Source: Clostridia bacterium (GTDB taxonomy: Bacteria; Bacillota; Clostridia; Christensenellales; Aristaeellaceae). Taken from it: 64,000 nt of DNA. The notes below the pieces were generated by a model. That model saw only the letters and a program-made list of their open reading frames with translations, had not been told where the DNA came from and ran no database searches. Positions 43,841 through 46,797 of the stretch are shown one piece after another. The position numbers were made by a program, and so were the translations under genes. Every line of letters begins with the position of its first letter. The stretch's first letter is position 1. The stretch lies in NCBI GenBank assembly GCA_017429695.1, contig JAFROK010000031.1, positions 156,284 through 220,283 of the forward strand. Direction: 5' to 3'.

Positions 43841-43869
43841 TTTACATTTCAAAAATAAAATGATATAAT
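43841..43869 (+). promoter_or_regulatory. Promoter of the MotAB/ZorAB-like operon
   Basis: TTTACA (43841-43846) and TATAAT (43864-43869) with 17-nt spacing, plus a TGn extension directly before the -10. Confidence 0.75.
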
Positions 43870-43901
43870 TTTTTATCCTTTGTTTTTCAGGAGGATCTGT
43901 T

Positions 43902-45164
43902 ATGCCTGATTTGTCTCTGGCTGATATATTGGTCTACGCGGCGATTGCCGTTGTCACGCTCATCGGTGTTTTCAAATGCCTGGTTCCTCTGTATACAACT
44001 TCATCCGCCCTGCGCCGGGCCATCAGCCGCCTCCAGCAGGAAGCCGGCCAGATTACGGACCATCCCGTCTGGCAGGAATCCCGTTTTGTCGGCAACCGCC
44101 TCCGGGGCAGCTGGCTGCGCTTCCTGCAGAATGCGGAACAGCTGGACCGCCGGGGCCTCCCGACGAATGTGGAAGATTATATCAACGATGATACCGTCAC
44201 CCATGGGCCGGGAAACGCCACCCTCGCGGAGCTGATCCCGAATCTGCTCACCTCCCTCGGTATTCTCGGCACCTTCATGGGCCTTTATAGGGGCCTGTCC
44301 ACCCTGGATTTTGCAGATTCCGCCCGCCTGATCGAAGGCATCCCGAACCTGTTGTCCGGCATGCAGTTCGCCTTTGGAACCTCGGTTGCGGGTATCAGCT
44401 GCAGCCTGGTTTTCAATATGCTCAACCGCATCCTGCAAGGCGCCAGCTACCGGGCGATCGATGATTTCGTCACCTCCTTCACCCAGCTGGCCATGTCCCG
44501 TCCCCTGGATAATGATGTCCAGCTGATCTGTCAGAACCAGGACCGGAACTTTATGCTCCAGGGCATCAACGACAACCTGGTGGACCGCCTGGCCGATTCC
44601 GTCGGCCGCTCCATGACTCATGCCATGACCCCGGTCACCGAAACCATGGACCGCTTCATCGTCGGCGCAACCCGGAACCAGATTGAAGGCGTCAACCATA
44701 TTGTCGCCCGCTTCCTGGAGGAAATGGACCGGCGCCTTGGCAACAATTTCTCCGCCATGGCCGGCGCAATGAACCAGGTCACCCAGAGCCAGATCACCGC
44801 CGCTCAGAAGACCGGCGAAACCCTTTCTGCGGCGGACGGCATTGTTAAAAACGCACGTTCCCTGCAGGAAGTGACGGGCAGCATCCTGGATAAATTCGAT
44901 GCCTATCTTTCTGCCATCAATATGGTTCGCGAGCGGGATGAAAACTATGAAAAGCGCACTGCCGACTTGCTGGCCAAAATGCAGCAGGATAACAAAGAGC
45001 TTTCCGTCCTCATGGCGGACCTCAGCAAAACCGTCCAGAGCCTGAATGATATTTCCGTCCCGGCTGAAACCACGCTTTCGGAAATCAGCAAGGTCATGGC
45101 TTCCCTGAATGACCGTGTTCAGGTCATTTCCGATACTGTTTCTTCCCTTTCCAAGGAGGTTTGA
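43902..45164 (+). CDS. MotA/TolQ/ExbB-family channel subunit with long tail (ZorA-like)
   Basis: 420 residues. One N-terminal helix (about 8-30), then a cytoplasmic segment and two conserved channel helices. The first contains NLLTSLGILGTFMGLYRGL (114-132), the second GMQFAFGTSVAGISCSLVF (153-171). These are the signature sequences shared by ZorA, ExbB, TolQ and MotA. A helical cytoplasmic tail of roughly 240 residues follows, unlike ExbB/TolQ and like a short ZorA tail. It would form the pentameric stator around the next gene's product. AGGAGGA precedes the start. No flagellar genes are nearby. Confidence 0.85.
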   Translation: MPDLSLADILVYAAIAVVTLIGVFKCLVPLYTTSSALRRAISRLQQEAGQITDHPVWQESRFVGNRLRGSWLRFLQNAEQLDRRGLPTNVEDYINDDTVTHGPGNATLAELIPNLLTSLGILGTFMGLYRGLSTLDFADSARLIEGIPNLLSGMQFAFGTSVAGISCSLVFNMLNRILQGASYRAIDDFVTSFTQLAMSRPLDNDVQLICQNQDRNFMLQGINDNLVDRLADSVGRSMTHAMTPVTETMDRFIVGATRNQIEGVNHIVARFLEEMDRRLGNNFSAMAGAMNQVTQSQITAAQKTGETLSAADGIVKNARSLQEVTGSILDKFDAYLSAINMVRERDENYEKRTADLLAKMQQDNKELSVLMADLSKTVQSLNDISVPAETTLSEISKVMASLNDRVQVISDTVSSLSKEV

Positions 45165-45168
45165 TCCC

Positions 45169-46197
45169 ATGGCGCGTCAGCGAATCCATAATCGGCGCGC
45201 TGCCCGCGGTTCTGTCGGCGGAGGCGCAAGCTGGATCAGCTATTCGGACATGATGGCTGCTCTGGTATTGATTTTTGTCCTCATCCTGACCTACAGCCTT
45301 TCCCATTATTTTTCCATGCTGGAGGAAAAAAACCATCTCCTCAGCATGAGTCTTGAAGAATTGGAAGCGAAGGACCTGCAGCTCCGCCAGAGCATGCACG
45401 AGCTGGGCCATGCCACCCAGGAACTGGATCTCAAAACCAGGGACCTGAACCTGAAAACCAAAGAGCTGGATCAGGCTAAAACAGACCTGGAAGAAAAGGA
45501 ACTGCTTCTCCTGGAACAGCAGGACCAGCTGATTGTCATGCGGGATGTCCTGAATGCAAAGGAAAGCGAGCTCGCGTCCTCCCGTTCCGAACTGGAAGCG
45601 GCCCAGCTCCGCCTGGCGGAACAGCAGCAGGCCATGCAGCTCCAGGCAGCCCGGATCGATTCCCTCGCCGGCCTTCGCCGCACGATGATCTCGGATCTTT
45701 CCGCCACCTTTGCCCAGGCCGGCATCGATGCCAATGTGGATGATAAAGGCAATATCGTCCTCAACAGCTCCGTCTTCTTTGAGGTCAACCAGTCCACCAT
45801 CCGCGCGGAAGGCCAGGCGCTCCTGAATCGTTTTATTCCTGTGTATCTCAGCGTGCTGCTTCGCGATGAATATGCCGATTATCTCGGCGAAATCATCATT
45901 GAGGGACATACGGATTCAACCGGCACCTATGAAAAGAACCTGAAGCTCAGCCAGGAACGCGCCCTGCAGGTTGCGCTCTACTGTCTGAATATGGATTCGC
46001 TTTCCGTCCAGCAGAAGGATATGCTCAAGCAGATCCTGACCGCCAAGGGCCGCAGCAATTCCGATCCGATCCTGGTGAACGGTGTGGAGGATAAGGATGC
46101 CTCTCGCCGCGTGGAATTCAAGTTCAGCCTGAAGGATGACCAGCTGATTGATGAAATGAATCAGATTCTGAAACAGCAGAATTTGGGGAATGAATAA
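45169..46197 (+). CDS. MotB/ZorB-like protein: one membrane helix, coiled coil, OmpA-type peptidoglycan domain
   Basis: 342 residues. A basic N-tail is followed by SWISYSDMMAALVLIFVLIL, with D27 as the predicted proton-carrying aspartate. Residues 48-168 form a regular coiled coil, including the near-heptad run LDLKT/RDLNLKT/KELDQAK. The OmpA/MotB-type domain (about 195-325) contains IIIEGHTDSTGTYEKN and LSQERALQVALY, the peptidoglycan-binding signature. The ATG at 45169, 8 nt after AAGGAGGT, is preferred to in-frame upstream codons. The coil is much longer than in MotB, giving a reach of perhaps 15 nm (inference). Confidence 0.88.
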   Translation: MARQRIHNRRAARGSVGGGASWISYSDMMAALVLIFVLILTYSLSHYFSMLEEKNHLLSMSLEELEAKDLQLRQSMHELGHATQELDLKTRDLNLKTKELDQAKTDLEEKELLLLEQQDQLIVMRDVLNAKESELASSRSELEAAQLRLAEQQQAMQLQAARIDSLAGLRRTMISDLSATFAQAGIDANVDDKGNIVLNSSVFFEVNQSTIRAEGQALLNRFIPVYLSVLLRDEYADYLGEIIIEGHTDSTGTYEKNLKLSQERALQVALYCLNMDSLSVQQKDMLKQILTAKGRSNSDPILVNGVEDKDASRRVEFKFSLKDDQLIDEMNQILKQQNLGNE

Positions 46198-46749
46198 ATG
46201 AAAGCTTTCGCGATTTTTCTGATAGTCCTCTGCCTCCTGGCCCTGGGTGGCAGCGTGTACCTGCTCACCGCCTCCAACCTGGGCGCCTCTTCCGTCCGGT
46301 GCGATGTCTTCTGGCTGGATCATGATATTGAACTGCGCAATCACCTGCTCTCCCAGCTGGAATCCGGCACTTTCACCGGCATCTGCTTCCAGCCGGAGGA
46401 TGATCTCCTGTCTTCCTCCGAAAAATACCAGGTCTGCCTCTGGACCGTGCGCGTGGACAACCATACAATGCTGCCGGCCCGGGCAGTGGAATTCCAGGTG
46501 GTTCCCTTCAATCAGTTTGACATCCTGCAGTTCGACCTGGATTCCGTCCTCTCCGATACGCCGGTCGAACATATCATCCCCGCCGGCACCTCAGCAGAAA
46601 TCAGAATCGGCATGATCGTTCTCGCCAGGGATCAGCAAACCGCCCTCGGCCGGACAGACAACCGGAATGCCACCATCACCTGGTATCTGGACGGCTTTCC
46701 CTTCCCCGGCTCCAACGGCAAAAACGGAAAGCTGGTCCTCACGCCGTAA
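46198..46749 (+). CDS. Small membrane-anchored extracytoplasmic protein, third gene of the ZorAB-like operon
   Basis: 183 residues, starting immediately at the end of the previous stop codon, so translationally coupled. An N-terminal hydrophobic helix (AIFLIVLCLLALGGSVYLL) anchors a beta-rich domain of about 155 residues with VCLWTVRVDNHTMLPARAVE and IIPAGTSAEIRIGMIVLA, which reads like an immunoglobulin-type sandwich. It does not resemble ZorC, ZorD or ZorE. I recognise no family. An accessory that regulates or caps the motor outside the membrane is a guess from position. Confidence 0.75.
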   Translation: MKAFAIFLIVLCLLALGGSVYLLTASNLGASSVRCDVFWLDHDIELRNHLLSQLESGTFTGICFQPEDDLLSSSEKYQVCLWTVRVDNHTMLPARAVEFQVVPFNQFDILQFDLDSVLSDTPVEHIIPAGTSAEIRIGMIVLARDQQTALGRTDNRNATITWYLDGFPFPGSNGKNGKLVLTP

Positions 46750-46764
46750 GCCCCGGTGCCATGA

Positions 46765-46797
46765 AAAAAACGCCCGTGCGATGCATGAGCGTTTTTT
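46765..46797. terminator. Bidirectional terminator shared by the ZorAB-like operon and the opposing RNA
   Basis: AAAAAACGC (46765-46773) pairs with GCGTTTTTT (46789-46797); inner stem CGTGC/GCATG with loop GAT. T-runs lie on both strands. Confidence 0.9.

Follow-up and report, generated by a model that had tools for sequence, protein, structure and literature searches.

Zorya has been described as a bacterial motor adapted for phage defence, and the published model has ZorB unbound at rest and in contact with the wall once the wall is forced down or damaged by an attacking phage (PMC11890865). Types I to III, in which ZorAB is joined by ZorCD, ZorE or ZorFG, share a ZorA channel core, a ZorB aspartate and an OmpA-type wall domain. 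Here we analysed a three-gene operon in 64,000 nucleotides of the Aristaeellaceae genome GCA_017429695.1 (the window), which encodes a ZorA-like protein, a ZorB-like protein and a small third protein, with no linked ZorC, ZorD, ZorE, ZorF or ZorG. At a probability of roughly 0.5, we read it as a housekeeping, peptidoglycan-anchored, Zorya-type ion motor with an extracytoplasmic accessory, which would serve wall or envelope work and not phage defence. The features of the locus, all on the forward strand, were as follows.

43841..43869, +, sigma-70-like promoter TTTACA-N17-TATAAT, a consensus match only (11 of 12 positions, TG before the second hexamer)
43902..45164, +, ZorA-like pentamer subunit, 420 amino acids (open reading frame list, Pfam, NCBIfam, PADLOC and PDB matches)
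45169..46197, +, ZorB-like dimer subunit, 342 amino acids, with a transmembrane helix carrying D27, a long rod and an OmpA-type domain (open reading frame list, Pfam, NCBIfam, PADLOC, PDB, alignment and tree)
45241..45717, +, ZorB residues 25-183, predicted unbroken helix comprising the transmembrane part and a rod of ~20 nm (structure model)
45775..46101, +, ZorB residues 203-311, OmpA-type peptidoglycan-binding domain (PF00691, E 1.3e-12; conserved motifs)
46198..46749, +, third protein, 183 amino acids, N-terminal membrane anchor and predicted immunoglobulin (Ig)-like beta sandwich, no known family (open reading frame, model and searches)
46775..46797, +, intrinsic-terminator-like weak hairpin, 5-pair stem and T run, not above chance by itself

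Distribution and conservation of the operon

The operon is a core gene set in the family rather than a patchy one. Among 37 same-genus genomes, the window's own included, the third protein, ZorB and ZorA (E < 1e-160) were each found in 32, and all three genes were present in 10 of the 10 genomes that were at least 90% complete. By our sum of the completeness values of the 37, about 30 would be expected to carry the operon if it were universal. In two more same-genus genomes the ZorA search met no more than another, dissimilar ZorA-like protein (E 4e-24 and 1e-23). Family-wide, 227 of 308 genomes encoded the third protein, as did 95 of the 120 good ones, and it occurred in 39 of 50 genera (40 of 45 same-genus genomes in this search), while the class-wide search found it in 4 of 391 genomes, two of which belong to the same family. 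We rejected its presence in other families, as the remaining two class matches were only short and lay on the anchor stretch (E 0.001 and 0.004). The patchy spread typical of defence systems was thus not seen.

The three coupled genes, which a sequence-only reading of this DNA had placed in this order, were confirmed, with a gap of 4 nucleotides (nt) between zorA and zorB and of 0 nt between zorB and the third gene. A scripted survey of 74 named loci from metagenome-assembled genomes of Clostridia, for 29 of which a ruminant gut site was given, recovered 63 triplets (median gaps 2 and 3 nt), four pairs without an adjacent third gene and seven loci that were cut or unreadable. The third gene therefore stays with the pair in related genomes, and it is on this conserved linkage that we base operon status. 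The same reading's single promoter and single terminator held up in part: both sites exist, but the scanned stretch contained four promoter-like sites against 2.3 expected by chance and four terminator-like sites against 3.4, so that the transcript ends are only plausible. The four exceptions to the triplet were L117 and the second, paralogous ZorAB copies in L168, L179 and L181. L117, judged by its length the same contig as L065 (5451-9517; genome G023), has two opposite-strand sugar-metabolism genes that separate zorB from the third gene; no other same-genus locus that was mapped is interrupted in this way. One locus, L116, was counted as unreadable only because its ZorA frame extends upstream; L076, a contig of equal length, shows the triplet. 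Gene neighbours of the triplet were often conserved, and where they were not, the triplet mostly stayed together.

Twenty further loci, one from the same genus and one from outside the family, all encoded ZorA and ZorB, and the third gene adjoined them in 15. It did not in L104, L106, L107 and L108, nor in L109, the locus from outside the family. In L106 to L108 a different membrane-anchored protein follows ZorB after gaps of 18, 314 and 170 nt, respectively.

The motor subunits

The first protein matched the MotA_ExbB domain of Pfam at 24.1 bits (cut-off 22.9) and is the single such match in its genome. Its best NCBIfam models were ZorA subfamilies, with ZorA_2 at 84.6 bits and so under its curated cut-off of 100, and its best PADLOC models were ZorA1 and ZorA2 (top E 3.4e-23). 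All six PDB matches under E 1e-4 were ZorA chains, among them 8vvn_C (E 1.2e-12) and 8qyk_A (E 8e-9); 8VVN and 8VVI are Zorya type I and type II structures. In a channel alignment with E. coli ZorA1, ZorA2, TolQ and MotA, the motifs GILGTF (T124) and AFGTS (T160, S161) were kept or nearly so across the ZorA rows. A C-terminal cytoplasmic tail of ~200 residues follows the channel helices, so that the protein has a MotA/ExbB channel core and a tail, as Zorya ZorA does and as the sequence-only reading had noted. It is shorter than ZorA of the E. coli plasmid type I system, at 420 against 729 amino acids.

The second protein likewise has the two features of a Zorya ZorB, a transmembrane aspartate and an OmpA-type domain. 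Its start is the ATG at 45169, after AAGGAGG at 45153-45159, which makes the membrane aspartate residue 27, the position given in the sequence-only reading; it was invariant in 21 of 21 aligned rows. The peptidoglycan domain proposed there was recovered as well (OmpA, 48.3 bits against a Pfam cut-off of 27.2), with conserved GHTD and ASRRVEF motifs, while MotB_plug remained sub-threshold (17.7 bits, cut-off 24). The PADLOC ZorB1 model PDLC00609 scored 213 bits (E 7.6e-64), compared with 260 and 209 bits for genuine clostridial ZorBs and 128 and 110 bits for the looser relatives in L066 and L193. Under NCBIfam models, ZorB1 reached 61.9 bits, far under its equivalog cut-off of 400, ZorB2 59.4, and flagellar MotB and MotS 24.4 and 27 bits. 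The closest solved structure was Zorya ZorB (8qyd_F, E 1e-14), so that the nearest structures to both subunits come from Zorya (8VVN and the 8QYx entries for ZorA, 8QYD for ZorB).

A maximum-likelihood tree of the membrane and wall segments of 49 ZorB rows (L213, L192, L201 and MotB left out) placed the family's own ZorBs and four Zorya sequences (E. coli I and II, clostridial I and II) on one side of a branch with support of 100/100. On the opposite side were ZorBs of the TPR-type, dnaG-linked and G045/G170 pairs. Support for the own-family ZorBs as a single clade was just 74/52, and several Zorya rows formed long branches. By its sequence, the operon's ZorB belongs with Zorya ZorBs, of which it may be an ancestor, a sister or a domesticated descendant. 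The corresponding ZorA channel tree was set aside because of long branches, because rows from exopolysaccharide/EAL loci and clostridial Zorya I were mixed among own-family rows, and because eight rows were lost for want of the anchor motif.

The coiled coil named in the sequence-only reading was modelled as one unbroken helix of 159 residues (25-183, membrane part included), which leads to the wall-binding domain. The predicted local distance difference test (pLDDT) score was 83-95 in 10-residue blocks over residues 31-190, with a whole-chain predicted template modelling score of only 0.45. About 135 of the helix residues are predicted to lie outside the membrane, which at 0.15 nm per residue gives, by our arithmetic, ~20 nm. 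The distance from the aspartate to the LSxxRA motif was 233 residues in this ZorB and 227 at the median of 23 own-family rows; the low end of 80 is an early chance match in L073, where the next match gives 213. Looser clostridial relatives had medians of 201-217, and in another family two loci with only the pair had 118. The distance was 129 and 140 in the two genuine type I Zorya ZorBs measured, 87-98 residues less than the own-family median, a comparison with type I only, as the pattern missed the two Zorya II rows. For Gram-positive periplasms, widths of 22 nm in B. subtilis and 16 nm in S. aureus have been reported, against 11 nm in E. coli, in a source that mentions contrary tomography alongside (PMC8141598).

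A third protein with a predicted outward-facing domain

The third protein was modelled as a transmembrane helix followed by an Ig-like beta sandwich (mean pLDDT 84.9), and the Ig-like domain is predicted to face outward, on the extracytoplasmic side, a further difference from Zorya. No match at E up to 1 was obtained in Pfam, NCBIfam or PADLOC, and no enzyme family was recognised. The description of a membrane-anchored, beta-rich protein of no known family was therefore upheld. The suggestion that it takes the place of Zorya effectors was not, because it is predicted to lie outside the cytoplasm, while ZorD and ZorE act on DNA.

With a broadened model (best E 0.86 beyond the known match), no third-like protein was found in L066, L104, L106-L109, L206, the paralogous loci or L188-L205. 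A genome-wide search did detect one in G406, which contains L104 (E 6.9e-29), in G235, which contains L206 (E 5.1e-12), and in G609 (E 7.5e-12), with no location in the genome listed for any of them. No homology was detected to the 140-amino-acid lipoprotein in the same slot of L066 (hhalign probability 0.4%). Over up to 20 loci, sequence identities correlated at r 0.82 between zorA and the third gene, 0.85 between zorB and the third gene and 0.77 between zorA and the Sir2 neighbour, and at only 0.20-0.38 between the aspartate-semialdehyde dehydrogenase (Asd) neighbour and each of the three operon genes. As the pairs are non-independent, these values merely fit vertical inheritance and are no proof of it.

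Effectors, neighbours and flagellar genes

Linked ZorCD, ZorE or ZorFG were found neither in the third protein nor among ten neighbours, as had been noted from the sequence; ZorD, ZorF and ZorG were sought only beside the operon. Genome-wide, ZorC (EH_Signature) was above cut-off in 0 of 61 genomes, and so was ZorE. The same libraries, run by hmmscan, did recognise ZorC and ZorE in two clostridial loci that carry genuine Zorya, L191 (90-7511; type I, with ZorC and ZorD) and L190 (5876-8958; type II, ZorE E 4e-70). A defence island was rejected: PADLOC gave one match among the ten neighbours, a nicking-endonuclease model on an HhH-GPD endonuclease III. By Pfam the neighbours are housekeeping genes (Sir2, isocitrate dehydrogenase, DUF308), and another reads as Asd.

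No flagellar, Tol or TonB genes were present among the six neighbours scanned with Pfam, and the earlier statement that none lie near holds to that extent; TolA and TonB were sought at the locus only. Against TonB_N, the DUF308 neighbour gave only a match of its Pro-rich tail (E 0.13) that fell far short of the cut-off. FlhA (PF00771), the only flagellar gene searched, was found in 0 of 25 same-genus genomes and in 4 of 14 controls, including E. coli and B. subtilis. Two Aristaeellaceae species are reported as non-motile (PMC12694931).

Comparison with other ion-driven motors

MotAB and PomAB share with the operon the tandem ion-motor genes and the OmpA-type wall domain of the B subunit. We rejected a flagellar MotAB stator because FlhA was missing from the 25 same-genus genomes searched, the MotB and MotS models scored far below the ZorB profiles, and no MotA profile was listed for the ZorA-like protein. 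Neither of the two results named beforehand as overturning the sequence-only reading, a firm placement in flagellar MotAB or a third gene not kept with the pair, was obtained. Tol-Pal (TolQR) and Ton (ExbBD) are envelope motors of the same superfamily without a motility role, and Tol-Pal offers a functional analogy. However, the B subunit here is OmpA-type with a long rod and not a short TolR/ExbD domain, and no TolA, TonB or Pal gene was found among the scanned neighbours. In GldLM of type IX secretion and gliding, reported only from Bacteroidetes according to PMC9389320, the extracytoplasmic dimer shaft is also long, at 18 nm for GldM (PMC9389320), but it consists of four folded domains instead of a helical rod that ends in a peptidoglycan-binding domain. 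Generic ion transporters are defined by a B subunit without OmpA homology (PMC12505986), and the OmpA domain found here sets the operon apart from them. Other clostridial ZorAB-like pairs have the same A-B order and most have a long-rod ZorB. They differ in that the TPR-type, dnaG-linked and G045/G170 ZorBs fall outside the clade of own-family and Zorya sequences, and in their third gene, which is TPR-like, a lipoprotein or missing.

Proposed function and alternatives

An everyday job at the wall is suggested by a motor that is core, lacks linked effectors, is accompanied by a small and, by prediction, outward-facing protein, and occurs where no flagellar export gene was found. By homology, five ZorA subunits would surround two ZorB helices, and ions (H+ or Na+) binding at ZorB Asp27 and the Thr-Ser ring of ZorA would turn the ZorA ring. 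The rigid ZorB rod, at ~20 nm, would span to the wall, where the OmpA-type domain would grip peptidoglycan. Such a rod may permit standing anchorage, unlike the shorter leash of Zorya ZorB, and standing contact would suit constitutive wall work better than an alarm. The third protein would sit in the membrane next to the complex and extend its Ig-like domain into the gap between membrane and wall, where it would act on the rod, or on a polymer of the wall, as a clutch or adaptor. The output could be the sensing of membrane-wall spacing, the driving of wall or envelope remodelling without flagella, or both, a role comparable to that of Tol-Pal in another envelope type. Among the roles that the sequence-only reading had offered, wall and envelope work is thus the one we favour, and defence is the one that the core distribution argues against.

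Several observations weigh against this proposal. The ZorB tree places the pair with defence motors, which may leave room for a role in defence, and the genome searches for ZorC and ZorE gave no match in any of 14 control genomes either, while in other same-genus genomes ZorC was matched twice under its cut-off (E 0.004 and 0.007). Of the three proteins the third evolves fastest, with a mean identity of 0.51 against 0.75 and 0.74 for the other two, a pace also seen in envelope proteins on which phages or hosts exert pressure. Nor is it indispensable for the pair, as some family members (L104, L106-L108) do not have it beside ZorB. The wall-type peptidase gene described below is restricted to one lineage. 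The agreement between the rod and a Gram-positive periplasm is one of length only, in uncultured bacteria that may have another type of envelope.

A new Zorya-type phage defence, in which ZorAB senses wall damage and either the third protein or depolarisation through the opened channel acts as effector, would agree with the 100/100 grouping of ZorB with Zorya I and II, with a PDLC00609 score close to those of genuine clostridial ZorBs and above those of L066 and L193, and with the fast divergence of the third protein. We consider it unlikely: the operon is core and often syntenic rather than patchy, which makes defence less probable, and it has no defence gene among ten neighbours and no linked nuclease or helicase partner. 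Moreover, no enzyme family matched its third protein, whose predicted position is on the outer side of the membrane, and ZorAB alone is reported to be insufficient for defence in Zorya (PMC8565338). It is similarly doubtful that the operon is a passive sensor of wall spacing or turgor, in which a wall-tethered ZorAB channel reports tension through the ZorA tail without productive rotation. The long predicted rod leading up to the peptidoglycan-binding domain and the proposal that Zorya itself senses the wall (PMC11890865) speak for such a sensor, whereas the full ion-motor signature is retained and no signalling partner gene is linked. A motility stator, be it a flagellar spare part or a gliding or pilus drive, has the general MotA/MotB architecture in its favour and is very improbable, given that FlhA is missing from all 25 same-genus genomes (gliding and pilus genes were outside the search) and that the ZorB1 and ZorB2 models reach 61.9 and 59.4 bits where MotB and MotS reach only 24.4 and 27.

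A wall-type peptidase gene and related loci

In ten loci (L093, L094, L158-L161, L163-L165 and L182) the third gene is followed by a gene for an M15-family D-Ala-D-Ala dipeptidase, at a spacing of -41 to +15 nt in nine of them (seven overlap by at least 17 nt) and +379 nt in the tenth. The two dipeptidases that were scanned matched Peptidase_M15 at 135.7 and 141.5 bits and did not reach the equivalog cut-off of VanX in NCBIfam; among solved structures, 1r44 came closest to the L094 enzyme (E 5.6e-45). L093 and L094 belong to genus g30, and the ZorAs of the eight other loci are closest to theirs (62-72% identity), against at most 47% for the seven other ZorAs compared; we therefore regard the ten as one lineage. 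A strongly hydrophobic N-terminal stretch in 9 of the 10 dipeptidases (not in L093 as called) reads as a signal peptide, and the enzyme is probably exported. A relative of the dipeptidase also occurs in the same-genus locus L081, elsewhere in the stretch and away from the operon.

Of 381 genomes in the class scan, another 18, all from outside the family, encoded ZorA-like proteins. Ten loci from four other clostridial families (L193-L200, L203 and L204) combine ZorA and ZorB with a TPR-like protein (sub-threshold match, E 0.02-0.04 in the single one scanned), with no effector gene recognised alongside, and this set is a candidate for another effectorless motor. In L202 (5313-7086) and L205 (5013-6744), a ZorAB-like pair lies directly upstream of genes read as dnaG and rpoD. 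The third slot of G045 reads as a lipoprotein gene. The remaining class loci comprised two with the pair only, one genuine Zorya I, one genuine Zorya II and two with a ZorA-like protein in polysaccharide clusters.

A MotA/ExbB-like channel was also located in apparent exopolysaccharide clusters of L063 (8684-11850; G028), L064 (8369-9979; G021), L188 and L189. That of L063 is fused to EAL, a cyclic di-GMP phosphodiesterase domain (Pfam EAL E 8.7e-39, MotA_ExbB E 3e-6), those of L064 and L188 are read as EAL fusions too, and L189 has the channel alone. In the partner protein of L063, an Asp-bearing MotB-like helix leads into SpaA prealbumin-like domains (E 7e-22), which occupy the place of OmpA, and the set is possibly a second-messenger-controlled motor for polysaccharide export. 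Finally, second ZorAB paralogs without an adjoining third gene occur in L061 (8674-12260; G005), L062 (2351-5841; G033) and L092 (15305-18765; G288). Their ZorBs, of 647-699 amino acids, have a rod 162-209 residues above the own-family median and appear to carry two tandem OmpA-type domains. In L061, a Card1-like nuclease gene lies ~1.7 kb upstream of the paralog.

Implications

The sequence-only reading had put the operon forward as the best candidate in the window for an undescribed system; we would rather call it an apparently undescribed variant of the Zorya motor already known, one that is core and has no linked effectors. In the literature covered, which excluded most subscription journals and preprints, we found no description of a core effectorless ZorAB or of this third protein.

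More broadly, and tentatively, ZorAB-type motors may be old clostridial wall housekeeping machines. The family-wide ZorAB, free of effectors and with an outward partner of its own, would then power the remodelling of the wall or report on it, much as Tol-Pal works in Gram-negative bacteria. Zorya defence would have been derived by shortening of the rod and addition of DNA-attacking effectors, and the third slot, be it Ig-like, TPR-like, a lipoprotein or an exported dipeptidase, might set the target of each motor. A match to a ZorA or ZorB profile does not suffice to infer defence in Clostridia, since the PADLOC ZorB1 model gives 213 bits on this ZorB. If our reading of the operon is true, this core motor, which has no linked effectors and shares the ZorB clade of Zorya, would be the non-defence relative from which, or into which, Zorya evolved, and it would suggest that bacteria lacking flagella can run an ion-driven motor at the wall.

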